From: an uncultured Pelagibacteraceae bacterium
GTDB taxonomy: Bacteria; Pseudomonadota; Alphaproteobacteria; Pelagibacterales; Pelagibacteraceae
Assembly (NCBI GenBank): GCA_902611845.1
Contig: CACMAX010000002.1
Location: 1-64,000 of the forward strand
Reading direction: 5' to 3'
DNA: 64,000 nt
This document shows, one piece after another, positions 54,434 through 57,713 of the stretch. Position numbers and translations under genes: made by a program. The notes below the pieces were generated by a model, which did not search any database, had not been told where the DNA came from, and saw nothing but the letters and a program-made list of their open reading frames with translations. Within the stretch, counting starts at the first letter, position 1, and every line of letters begins with the position of its first letter.

Positions 54434-54756
54434 CATATCTAGTTAATGAAAAGTGTATAAAGTGTAAACACACTACATGTGTCGACGTATGTCCTGTTGA
54501 TTGTTTCTATGAAGGAAAGAATATGCTTGTAATTAAACCGGATGAGTGTATAGATTGTGGCGTTTGTGAACCAGAGTGTCCTATTGATGCTATAGTTGCA
54601 GACACAGAGGCAGGAAGTGAAAAATGGTTAGAAGTTAATACAAAGTATTCAGAAATATGGCCAAATATTTCTAAAGCAAAAGAACCTCTACCAGATCACG
54701 AAAAATACAAAAATGAAGAAAATAAGTTTGATAAATACTTTGAAGAAAACATTTAA
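54430..54756 (+). CDS. fdxA: 7Fe ferredoxin (FdxA / FdII type)
   Basis: This 108-residue ferredoxin carries cysteines at 9, 12, 17, 21 and 25 and at 40, 43, 46 and 50, matching the Azotobacter FdI-type pattern shifted by one. C9, C17 and C50 would hold a 3Fe-4S cluster and C21, C40, C43, C46 a 4Fe-4S cluster. The extended C-terminal part (60-108, with a [17 protein letters not shown]-like segment) is also typical. It is a low-potential electron carrier. It overlaps both the TerB gene and, by 44 bases in another frame, the CarD gene, which is the usual ferredoxin-carD neighbourhood in alphaproteobacteria. Confidence 0.95.
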
Positions 54757-55582
54757 AACAAAAAAATCTAATAGTAAGAAAAAAAACTCTAAAACCTTAA
54801 ATAAGGCAAATAAATCAAAAAAAACAATTAAAACGAAAAAAATAAAATCATCTCCCAAGCAAGCTAAATCAAAAGCAAAAAAACAAATTATTAAAAAGAG
54901 TATTAAAGCGAAACAAATAAAATCGGAAAATAAAGATAATTCTGAAACAGGTAATAACTTACTTCGTATTTCAAAAAGTAATGAACAAAAACCAGAAATT
55001 AAAAAAGTTAAAAAACAAGATACTGAAAAGAAAGAATATAAAGTTAAAGATTATGTTGTATATCCAAAACATGGAGTAGGACAAATAACCGAGTTTAAAA
55101 AACTGAATATTGGTGGAATTGATATAGAAGCTTATATTTTAAAATTTGAGAAAGATAAAGCTAGTGGAATGGTGCCAGTAAATAAACAATCACATCTAAG
55201 ACCATTAGCAACAATCAACCAAGTAAATAAATGTATTAGTATCTTGAAAAGTAAACCAAAAATAAAAAGAAGTATGTGGAGTAGAAGAGCACAGGAGTAT
55301 GAAGCAAAAATTTCATCAGGAAAAATTTATGAGTTAGCTGAAGTTGTAAGAGATTTGAATAAAGGCGATGACTTAATGGTTGATCAATCTTACAGTGAAA
55401 GGCAACTTTTTGAAAAAGCTTACGACAGAATACTTACAGAATTTCAAATTATATTAAATATTAGTTTGGAAGATACTCAAAAGAAGCTGGATAAAGCATT
55501 AAAAAGAAATCTTGAAAAGCAAGTTCAAAAAACTGAAGTTAAACCTCCCGAAGAAGAAATTTCAGACGAAATAGCTACATAA
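54713..55582 (+). CDS. carD: CarD-family RNA polymerase-binding regulator with Lys-rich N-terminal tail
   Basis: The CarD/TRCF-like domain occupies about residues 105-275: [17 protein letters not shown] (RNA polymerase-interacting Tudor-like part) near 107, [15 protein letters not shown] near 143, then a helical DNA-contact region with [15 protein letters not shown] near 182. CarD binds the beta subunit and stabilises open promoters, including rRNA promoters. Residues 1-100 are an unusual low-complexity tail rich in Lys, Ser, Thr and Asn. Typical CarD proteins lack such a long basic tail. The ATG at 54713 lies inside the ferredoxin gene; TTG codons at 54728 or 54740 are alternatives. Confidence 0.88.
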
Positions 55583-55586
55583 AAAA

Positions 55587-55619
55587 AACGCTCCTCACGC
55601 AAGCGCCATGAGAAGCGTT
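55587..55619 (-). terminator. Intrinsic terminator of the small basic-protein gene
   Basis: AACGCT pairs with AGCGTT, CTCA with TGAG, and an inner CGC-AA-GCG can extend the hairpin. On the minus strand it is followed by a run of about eight T residues that overlaps the carD stop codon at 55580-55582. It is therefore placed to end transcription of the tiny minus-strand gene at 55642-55725, and may also stop carD transcripts less efficiently since the plus side is only moderately T-rich. Confidence 0.8.
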
Positions 55620-55641
55620 ATTTAATAAAAAGAATACTAAA

Positions 55642-55725
55642 CTATTTTCTTCTTCTCTTCTTAGCTTTTTTCTTAGCTTTTTTCTTAGTTTTCTTTTTAG
55701 CAGCTTTTTTTCTTCTTTTAGCCAT
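55642..55725 (-). CDS. 27-residue Lys/Arg/Ala-rich basic peptide
   Basis: An ATG with a strong Shine-Dalgarno (AAGGGAG, 6 bases upstream) opens 27 codons: MAKRRKKAAKKK followed by TKKKAKKKAKK and an RRRK end. Nearly every residue is Lys, Arg or Ala, with one Thr. This resembles the basic tails of histone H1-like or HU-related proteins, but no family match is certain. Two copies of a 12-base unit encode the KKKA repeats. A consensus-like promoter and a hairpin terminator flank it, so it is a free-standing transcription unit. It probably binds DNA, RNA or the ribosome by charge; that is inference. It is too short for normal gene calling. Confidence 0.75.
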   Translation of the reverse strand: MAKRRKKAAKKKTKKKAKKKAKKRRRK

Positions 55726-55745
55726 CTTTAGCTCCCTTTTTTATT

Positions 55746-55764
55746 ACGAATCTTTTTGATTCGT
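55746..55764 (-). promoter_or_regulatory. 5'-leader hairpin of the small basic-protein gene
   Basis: ACGAATC and GATTCGT form a perfect 7-base-pair stem with a five-base loop. On the minus strand it would begin just after the predicted transcription start and end about 20 bases before the ATG. A 5' hairpin in this position often protects short mRNAs from decay. A second hairpin (AATTAC with GTAATT, 55767-55784) overlaps the predicted -10 region. Confidence 0.5.
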
Positions 55765-55775
55765 TTAATTACCTT

Positions 55776-55804
55776 TTTGTAATTTTTTTGAATAGTTATG
55801 TCAA
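55776..55804 (-). promoter_or_regulatory. Sigma70-type promoter of the small basic-protein gene
   Basis: On the minus strand TTGACA (55804-55799) is a perfect -35 hexamer, followed after exactly 17 bases by TACAAA (55781-55776), which matches the -10 consensus at four of six positions. Transcription would start near 55769, giving a leader of roughly 45 bases. The rest of 55805-55908 is almost pure A/T homopolymer tracts with no further feature visible. Confidence 0.6.
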
Positions 55805-55908: not shown

Positions 55909-57618
55909 TTAATTATAAAGATTTTCAAAATTATTTTTATATTTATTTATAATTTTATATCTTTTTAATTTTAATGTTGGAGTTAACATTCCATTTTCAA
56001 TTGAAAATTTTTCATTTATTAAAAAAAACTTTTTAATATTTTCTACTTTTGAAAGATTATTATTTAAATTATTTATTGCATGATTGATTTCCTCATTTGT
56101 AATATTAGTAAATTCATCATTTAATACTAATAATGCTACCAAATAAGGTTTGTTATCTCCATACACTATTGCTTGATCAATAAATTCTAGATTTACTAAT
56201 TCATTTTCAATTTTTAGTGGAGAAATATTATCTCCTCCAGGAGTAATGATAATATCTTTTTTTCTATCAGTAATTTTTAGAAAATTATTTTCAAATACTC
56301 CAATATCCCCTGTATGAAGCCAGCCATCTATTAAGACTTTTTCTGTTTCTTCTTTATTATTCCAATAACCTAACATTACATTTTCACCTTTTACTAAAAT
56401 TTCTCCATCTTCGGCTATTTTTACCTCATTTCCCTTAAAAGGTGGGCCAACGGTATCTATTCTAATATCATCTATTGGATTACAACTTACAACTGGAGAG
56501 GTTTCTGTTAAGCCATAACCTTGTAGAGTTGGTAAACCAATAGCATTAAGAAAATATCCAACTTCTTTATCTAATGCACCTCCACCGGAGACAAATGTTT
56601 TAAGGGATCCACCAAATTGTGATTTTATTTTTTTTCTTACCAATTTCTCTAAGATACTATCTTGTATTTTTTCAAAAATAGTTAAATTTTCTTTTTTTAT
56701 TTTTTTTAGACCTAATTCTAACATTTTAAATATTAATTTTTTTTTCAATCCTGTAGCTTTTTTAAAACTCGCATTAATTTTTTGAAAAAGATTTTGATAA
56801 AATCTTGGAACAGCAGTCATAATTTCTGGCGAGCAATCACCCATATTTTTAACTAATTTGTCAATGCTCTCTGCATAAAAAATTCTAGCTGCTACAGTAA
56901 TTTGCACAAATTGAACAGTGTGCTCGTAAGAATGTGAAAGTGGAAGCCATGTTAGGAACCTTGGCTGTTCTTCAGATAATAATGGTTTTAGAATATCTAT
57001 TGCACCCTCACAATTATTTATAATGCCCCCATGACTTAAAATTACTCCTTTTGGATTTCCTTGAGTACCTGAAGTGTAAATTATACAAGACGGATCTTTT
57101 CTTAAGGCTAAGGATTTGTGAAGTGGTATTTTTTTTTTAAAATTATTTCGGATTAATTCTTCTAAATTAATATATTCAATTTCTACATTTGGTAATTTTT
57201 CAAAAGAAAATATTTTTTTTATAAATTTTTTGTCTTTAATAATGTTTTTTAATTTATTGAATTGTTCAATGTTTGAGACAAAAATTATACTGGGAGTACA
57301 ATCATTGAGAATATAATTATAGTCATTTTCTGCATAAGTTGTGTAAGCTGGAACAGTTATCCCATCTGATAACATAATAGACAAGTCTGTAATAAACCAT
57401 TCAGGTCTATTTTCAGAAATTAACAAACATCTATCACCTTTTGATATTACTTTTCTTAATTCATTAGAAACCAAATTAATAAAATCGTGGGTTTCTTGCC
57501 AAGAATAATTTTTTCTTTTATCGCCTAATGTTGATAATAAAATTTTATCTTTATCAGTTTGTTTATTAAATTTATCAAAAAATAATTCAGTTAAATTATT
57601 AATTTGTTTTAATTTCAT
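55909..57618 (-). CDS. AMP-forming long-chain acyl-CoA synthetase
   Basis: The 569-residue protein is an adenylate-forming ligase of the FadD/long-chain type: P-loop YTSGTQGNPKGV near 183, the LPLSHSYEHT gate region near 225, SGGGALDKEVGYF near 338, GYGLTETSPVV near 360, GWLHTGDIG near 430 and KDIIITPGGDNISP near 452. The usual C-terminal catalytic Lys is in LKLKRYKI near 555. It activates fatty acids to acyl-CoA for lipid synthesis or breakdown. I use the ATG at 57618; the longer TTG frame would start inside tRNA-Leu. Only 8 bases separate the tRNA CCA from this ATG. Confidence 0.9.
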   Translation of the reverse strand: MKLKQINNLTELFFDKFNKQTDKDKILLSTLGDKRKNYSWQETHDFINLVSNELRKVISKGDRCLLISENRPEWFITDLSIMLSDGITVPAYTTYAENDYNYILNDCTPSIIFVSNIEQFNKLKNIIKDKKFIKKIFSFEKLPNVEIEYINLEELIRNNFKKKIPLHKSLALRKDPSCIIYTSGTQGNPKGVILSHGGIINNCEGAIDILKPLLSEEQPRFLTWLPLSHSYEHTVQFVQITVAARIFYAESIDKLVKNMGDCSPEIMTAVPRFYQNLFQKINASFKKATGLKKKLIFKMLELGLKKIKKENLTIFEKIQDSILEKLVRKKIKSQFGGSLKTFVSGGGALDKEVGYFLNAIGLPTLQGYGLTETSPVVSCNPIDDIRIDTVGPPFKGNEVKIAEDGEILVKGENVMLGYWNNKEETEKVLIDGWLHTGDIGVFENNFLKITDRKKDIIITPGGDNISPLKIENELVNLEFIDQAIVYGDNKPYLVALLVLNDEFTNITNEEINHAINNLNNNLSKVENIKKFFLINEKFSIENGMLTPTLKLKRYKIINKYKNNFENLYN

Positions 57619-57626
57619 ATATTTTG

Positions 57627-57713
57627 TGGTGGGCAAAGAGAGAATCGAACTCTCACAGTATTGCTACTATTGGATTTTGAGTCCAACGCGTCTACCAGTT
57701 CCGCCATTCGCCC
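57627..57713 (-). tRNA. tRNA-Leu (anticodon CAA), CCA encoded
   Basis: The minus-strand sequence folds as a type II tRNA. Acceptor GGGCGAA pairs with TTTGCCC, with discriminator A and encoded CCA. The D arm holds GGCGGAACTGGTAGACGC, anticodon stem-loop TTGGA-CTCAAAA-TCCAA gives CAA, a long variable arm follows, and the T arm is GAGAG-TTCGATT-CTCTC. It reads UUG leucine codons. The acyl-CoA synthetase start lies 8 bases beyond its 3' end. Its own promoter should be in 57714-57778, shared divergently with the YqaA gene. Confidence 0.97.

Follow-up and report, generated by a model that had tools for sequence, protein, structure and literature searches.

Bacterial H1-like proteins such as Hc1, HC2 and AlgP are lysine-rich and contain Lys/Ala(/Pro) repeats that resemble the tail of histone H1. 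In the IstR-1/tisB system, a trans-encoded antitoxin RNA stops translation of a very short peptide by pairing with its mRNA; the peptides of such type I toxin systems are hydrophobic, and their genes are patchily distributed. Pelagibacter is among the ocean's most numerous bacteria, and regulation in SAR11 is thought to be sparse. In Chlamydia trachomatis, according to the relevant passages of published work (PMC4355289; see also PMC3469542), the small RNA IhtA (107 nt, three stem-loops, with a 7-nt functional core) occludes the start codon of hctA with its loop 1, and HctA condenses DNA. For Ca. P. ubique, passages in Meyer et al. 2009 (PMC2704228) describe rhtB RNA (Rfam RF01814) as a hairpin with a bulge, which lies next to rhtB and in about half of the examples has a poly-U track, and propose that it has a regulatory role or signals termination; a target is named in none of these passages.

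We propose, with a probability of roughly two in three, that rhtB RNA is a trans-encoded antisense RNA controlling translation of a shrunken H1-like mini-protein in Pelagibacter. Of the systems compared, IhtA-hctA would be the best parallel for this pair: in each case the loop of a trans-encoded stem-loop RNA is complementary to, or lies over, the start codon in the mRNA of a small and very basic protein, and the start region of the target is conserved. In contrast to IhtA, however, the rhtB hairpin measures about 47 nt and has a 13-nt loop with 14-18 bp of exact pairing. The mini-protein is 20-32 aa long, has no family match and belongs to free-living marine SAR11, whereas HctA is presumably larger and has its own protein family; for the mini-protein, condensation of DNA is suggested by composition and synteny. 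As in IstR-1/tisB, the mRNA with which the RNA would pair encodes a very short peptide, but this peptide is polycationic and the pair is core to the genus. The Lys/Ala(/Pro) repeats of Hc1, HC2 and AlgP are likewise recognizable, especially in a 76-91 aa protein of the sister family, although no Pfam or NCBIfam model is matched and the protein has only 20-32 aa in this genus. Relative to the published passages on RF01814 (PMC2704228), the hairpin and its site beside rhtB/LysE are the same, and the trans target, the mini-gene, is assigned here.

The mini-gene lies on the minus strand of the window (the whole stretch of 64,000 nucleotides analysed), where re-reading recovered every element that the first-pass annotation had listed. 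A promoter-like TTGACA-17-TACAAA arrangement occupies positions 55776-55804 (TTGACA 55804-55799, TACAAA 55781-55776); it was not called by a consensus promoter scanner, the second hexamer being without a final T, and TTGACAT is found upstream of the mini-gene in 53/55 same-genus loci. It is followed by a 7-bp leader hairpin (ACGAATC-AAAAA-GATTCGT, 55746-55764), present in 54/55 of these loci, by an AAGGGAG Shine-Dalgarno (55738-55732) and by the ATG at 55725. The open reading frame, MAKRRKKAAKKKTKKKAKKKAKKRRRK, has 27 codons (55642-55725), within which a 12-base tandem repeat of 3.7 copies (55658-55701, unstranded) codes for the KKKA units, as had been suggested. An intrinsic terminator with a 13-pair stem and eight T residues (55581-55619, minus strand) closes the unit; its ACGCTTCT motif is present in 55/55 same-genus loci, and a terminator scan found one such element against 0.3 expected in shuffles. 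The predicted RNA fold of the mini-gene region is better than that of 199/200 shuffles (z -3.57).

Two neighbours frame the unit. A convergent gene (54713-55582, plus strand), which we take to be carD-like following the first-pass label and recall, defines the synteny and has a homologue beside the mini-gene in 53/54 loci; its sole family match is mfd, below the cut-off at 19.6 bits. Upstream and on the same strand as the mini-gene is a gene that we similarly presume to encode an acyl-CoA synthetase (55909-57636), with a homologue in 52/54 loci. The T-run of the terminator overlaps the stop codon of the carD-like gene. The terminator sits between two convergent genes, several relatives also have a T-run on the carD strand, and it may serve both genes. 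As for the leader hairpin, the CGAATC..GATTCG palindrome was found in its own genome at the mini-gene locus only, and a regulon based on it was therefore rejected. Its 5' half, CGAATCA (window 55757-55763), also precedes the mini-gene in four other genera of the family (g5, g6, g8 and g9), including cases in which the 3' half is different or forms a longer hairpin, and is absent from the 45 bases shown for a fifth (g7); the element may be bound by something, beyond its role in folding.

Conservation within the genus argues for a protein-coding gene. BLAST with the 191-base unit located it in 47/60 same-genus genomes at E 1e-22 or better, with weak matches or none at the mini-gene locus in the other 13, genome completeness ranging from 55 to 100%. 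The RBS is visible in 47 of 48 genomes (these 47 and its own; the exception, G004, has its locus truncated at the end of a contig). The sequence in these 47 is GGGAGCTAAAGATG throughout, except for GGGAGCTAAAAATG in G037. According to the first-pass annotation, a frame broken in close relatives while the hairpins persisted would have pointed to a small RNA. The opposite was observed: the frame is open in 55/55 same-genus loci, a fetched set rather than a random draw, eight of them chosen for an unusual RBS or RNA loop or a low RNA score. These frames encode 20-32 aa in 12 distinct lengths, with both termini in one frame throughout, mostly beginning MAKRRKK or MPKRRKK and ending RRRR in 29/55. 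The flanking spacings vary by single bases (hairpin to Shine-Dalgarno 7-13 nt, stop to terminator 15-27 nt) and are not confined to multiples of three. The 27-aa peptide itself is too short and of too low complexity to serve as a protein query, matching in only 15/151 genomes, and DNA, pattern and synteny searches were therefore used. The mini-gene pattern had no matches in the viral_contigs set.

The peptide is a polycation. Over the 55 ORFs its composition is K 756, R 299, A 254, M 55, T 30, P 19 and S 2, so that K+R make up 75% of residues, and the mean net charge is +19; no strongly hydrophobic residue occurs except Met1. Outside the genus, a search anchored on the CarD-like protein covered 23 genomes and gave 22 matches (G207 had no anchor match). 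The slot beside CarD holds a Lys/Arg mini-ORF in 11/11 same-family loci from five other genera (g5-g9), 21-50 aa long when counted from MAK; the synteny proposed for checking thus extends beyond the genus, and together with the intact frame it bears out the initial view of a monocistronic protein gene. In the sister family, the same slot is occupied in 8/9 loci by a 76-91 aa Lys/Ala/Pro repeat protein that starts MEELK or MEDLK, the ninth locus being truncated at a contig end. Composition and position mark this protein as H1-like, and its presence there makes histone-like, as the peptide had been called, the best guess for the mini-gene product as well. Five proteins (four from the sister family and the window peptide) matched no model in Pfam or in NCBIfam at E-values up to 0.1, a test weakened by low complexity, nor did any of them match a curated profile of the Hc1/HC2 H1-like families; the H1-like label therefore rests on composition and synteny. 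The best explanation of the mini-gene product is a putative shrunken H1-like polycation, 20-32 aa in the genus with Lys+Arg at about 75%, whose most likely role is to bind and condense nucleic acid.

The 14-mer that spans the RBS from the Shine-Dalgarno to the ATG occurs twice in its own genome. Among 71 genus genomes, many of them incomplete, 37 have exactly two copies, 1 has three, 30 have one and 3 have none, and a reversed-pattern control gave no matches in the same 71. The second place is a hairpin (G000:C1:123354-123400, outside the window) that is matched by RF01814 at 78.8 bits against a gathering cut-off of 55 (L002 1471-1547, plus strand; G000:C1:123336-123412), on the strand antisense to the RBS; locus L182 also scores 78.8 bits. 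Sub-threshold Rfam matches on or opposite the mini-gene were not counted (BTnc049 at 22.5, ctRNA_pT181 at 28.5 and, on the opposite strand, rhtB at 28 bits), the last being expected because the sequence is shared.

A covariance-model search found RF01814 above cut-off in 144/247 genomes of the order and in 0/14 control genomes, with one match per positive genome. All 144 belong to this genus, which is Pelagibacter (144/159 genus genomes and 0/88 others, as read from list order). Each of the seven single-contig genus genomes (G012, G122, G192, G193, G196, G197 and G198) has a single RF01814 match, a single mini-gene RBS and a single antisense loop; one further, weak 3-mismatch match occurs elsewhere in G193 and in G198. 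The RF01814 match in G196 (L249, G196:C1:1297616-1297698) overlaps the intergenic region 1297623-1297755 given in a passage of Meyer et al. 2009 (PMC2704228). A stem-only search, blind to the loop, matched 88/111 genomes, and among the matches listed every loop is antisense except in two stray matches (G111:C3 and G141:C23). Similarly, 30/30 of the loci fetched from the 144 covariance-model matches carry the antisense loop. Several of the searches used the 14-mer itself; the whole-gene BLAST, stem-only and covariance-model sets are free of it, and all agree.

RF01814 is missing in 15/159 genus genomes, again by list order. Among the 13 of these that were searched, a mini-gene-type RBS is present in 12 and an antisense loop within 3 mismatches in none; at their completeness of 87-97%, the absences may reflect either loss or assembly gaps. 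In other genera of the family RF01814 was not found and the mini-gene RBS differs. No second RBS copy was recognised in g6 and g9 among the matches read (all but G235:C10, L312 and L321), and the RBS look-alikes there were rejected as partner RNAs since the contexts read contain no hairpin. The absence outside the genus fits an origin of rhtB RNA within it; an RNA with a diverged loop is also possible.

The structure of the hairpin identifies its strand. The inner helix encloses a 13-nt terminal loop, AUCUUUAGCUCCC, which is a perfect complement to the stretch of the mini-mRNA that begins at the Shine-Dalgarno and ends with the AU of the start codon. In 18 loci chosen to span the variation (13 of them distinct), 99.5% of 182 stem cells hold standard pairs on the antisense strand, as compared with 90.7% on the other, where the U.G wobbles of the stem and one inner-helix G.U pair turn into C.A. 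Both-side changes occur at three stem pairs on the antisense strand. Stem pair 6 is U-A in 79, U.G in 8 and C-G in 1 of 88 rows (87 genomes, one twice). A TGCA-type box and a TAnnnT hexamer precede the stem at near-fixed spacing in 81/87 loci, hexamers of this kind being common in AT-rich DNA, and the RNA is probably made from its own promoter. It sits between a gene that we presume to be DUF2805-like and, in most loci, rhtB/LysE, with the start of the LysE-family gene 0-40 nt after the stem in 65/87 loci; 22/87 have no LysE/rhtB match, including one locus truncated at the end of its contig. Only 36/87 have a T-run (at least 6 of 9) after the stem. The upstream DUF2805-like gene (L002 1125-1424, minus strand) has a match in 85/87 loci. 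As a speculation, the position of the RNA ahead of a LysE-family exporter may point to a connection with basic amino acids.

The complement of the loop region in the window is the site GGGAGCTAAAGATGGCTA (55719-55736, minus strand), which runs from the Shine-Dalgarno into codon 3. A pairing table was compiled for 100 genomes from loci read directly and from 25-base pattern matches, single-locus genomes being left out. Across the 1,400 cells from GGGAG to ATG there are 0 mispairs and 4 wobbles, the rest being Watson-Crick; three wobbles are C>U changes in the RNA (G053, G124 and G268) and one is a C>U change in the mRNA (G139). Five mini-genes have a G>A change before the AUG (G037, G111, G119, G297 and G353), and the RNA has the matching C>U in 5/5 of these genomes and in 0/95 of the others, a co-occurrence that a hand calculation puts at about 1 in 75 million for independent genomes, which these are not. 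G106 also has the G>A, and no RNA locus was found there. In a tree of the acyl-CoA synthetase, at least two changes of the G>A state are needed among four of these genomes, with 0% of bootstrap trees allowing one; the shorter CarD tree (two labelled groups counted, 30 rows omitted) allows fewer origins, and such neighbour-gene trees may be blurred by recombination. The base just after the AUG mispairs (C:C) in 43/100 genomes, those with MPK starts, and pairing resumes beyond it in part. In 43 genomes the predicted duplex energy averages -39.4 kcal/mol against -18.8 with mononucleotide-shuffled RNA, and the weakest real duplex (-32.9) and the best single shuffle (-38.6 kcal/mol) mark the extremes. 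Complementarity to an RBS at another locus is therefore accompanied by compensatory change, the two signs expected of a trans-acting antisense RNA, and the sequences strongly support the predicted pairing of rhtB RNA with the mini-gene. With up to 2 mismatches allowed, the 14-mer has 14 other matches in the genome of the window; of the six read as possible further targets, five have short open frames or none at the site and one, L057, has a longer frame with a putative start.

The mechanism we envisage builds on the observed gene, synteny, RNA structure, strand, complementarity and trans-compensatory change. If both RNAs are made together, the rhtB loop would contact the mini-mRNA at the Shine-Dalgarno and AUG, and the contact would zip out to 14-18 bp. 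Occlusion of the initiation codon is here predicted from complementarity, the 13-nt loop pairing from the Shine-Dalgarno through the AU of AUG; the duplex would hide both elements and block binding of the 30S subunit. Because the pairing spans Shine-Dalgarno and AUG, repressed initiation is the likeliest outcome, and rhtB RNA probably switches the mini-protein off. Given a conserved antisense RNA directed precisely at its start region, the gene is probably repressed for at least part of the time. The first-pass reading is supported in part: the unit is a real monocistronic protein gene, a histone-like role, one of several that the reading offered, is now the best guess, and the high expression it foresaw is putative. 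What it missed is the antisense target at the start region.

Other readings account for parts of these data. Poly-Lys/Arg peptides can be toxic, and a trans-encoded antisense RNA lying exactly over the RBS of a 20-32 aa peptide is what a type I toxin-antitoxin-like pair would look like, with a polycationic peptide that is harmful unless silenced and serves growth arrest. We consider this unlikely, because RF01814, with a single match above the cut-off in each positive genome and present in 144 of about 159 genomes of the genus, is a core element, neither mobile nor patchy, because the mini-gene also occurs in further genera of the family that gave no RF01814 match, and because in the 55 ORFs only Met1 is strongly hydrophobic, which does not suit a membrane-acting peptide. 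The position of the hairpin 0-40 nt before a LysE-family start in 65/87 loci, with a T-run in only 36/87, could instead mean that the RNA does its real work in cis on this rhtB gene and that the mini-mRNA is its sponge or co-regulator. That seems quite unlikely given that the loop is still antisense in the 22/87 loci without a LysE match (one cut by a contig end), nine of which came from the covariance-model search, in which the antisense motif used to collect the 87 was not required, and given that the mini-gene also occurs in genera without an RF01814 match.

The shared 14-mer might also be a same-strand feature, either a common protein site or an RBS mimic with no antisense pair, for the compensating G>A looks alike whether the copy is read sense or antisense. 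The stem wobbles and inner helix fit the antisense strand only (99.5% versus 90.7% of cells paired), however, and the Rfam model and promoter-like boxes favour that strand too, making this reading very unlikely. Finally, the window locus could be a structured RNA with an incidental ORF, since its leader hairpin and terminator are conserved and A/G-rich sequence opens frames easily; but the 12 in-frame lengths with conserved termini between freely varying UTR spacings, the coding counterparts in other genera and the 76-91 aa protein of the sister family render this highly improbable.

A fuller picture can be drawn, to which we would give somewhat less than even odds: a core two-part switch of Pelagibacter, in which a nucleoid protein of about 25 residues, H1-like, and a dedicated 47-nt rhtB hairpin that evolved only in the genus, co-evolving base by base with the start site, together set chromosome compaction. 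The peptide would act by binding DNA or RNA. Such a switch would be a free-living parallel to chlamydial IhtA-HctA, and the comparison suggests that start-codon control of a tiny H1-like protein by a small RNA arose separately from the Chlamydia case. The proposed pairing gives a candidate target to an Rfam RNA left without one in the passages of Meyer et al. 2009 (PMC2704228), adds to a model streamlined genome a core protein far under the usual annotation cut-offs, and offers, in its trans-compensatory evolution, direct evidence of an sRNA paired with an mRNA in SAR11. A literature search found no account of a lysine-rich small protein, a histone-like nucleoid protein or an rhtB sRNA in SAR11, and passages of an mdRNA-Seq paper (PMC5069720) name neither the mini-gene nor rhtB RNA. 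The CarD-like proteins beside the mini-gene (window 54713-55582; L349 1159-2004) themselves have long Lys-rich N-terminal extensions, with KKKVAKKK repeats in the sister family, and these extensions amount to H1-like tails on a putative transcription factor.
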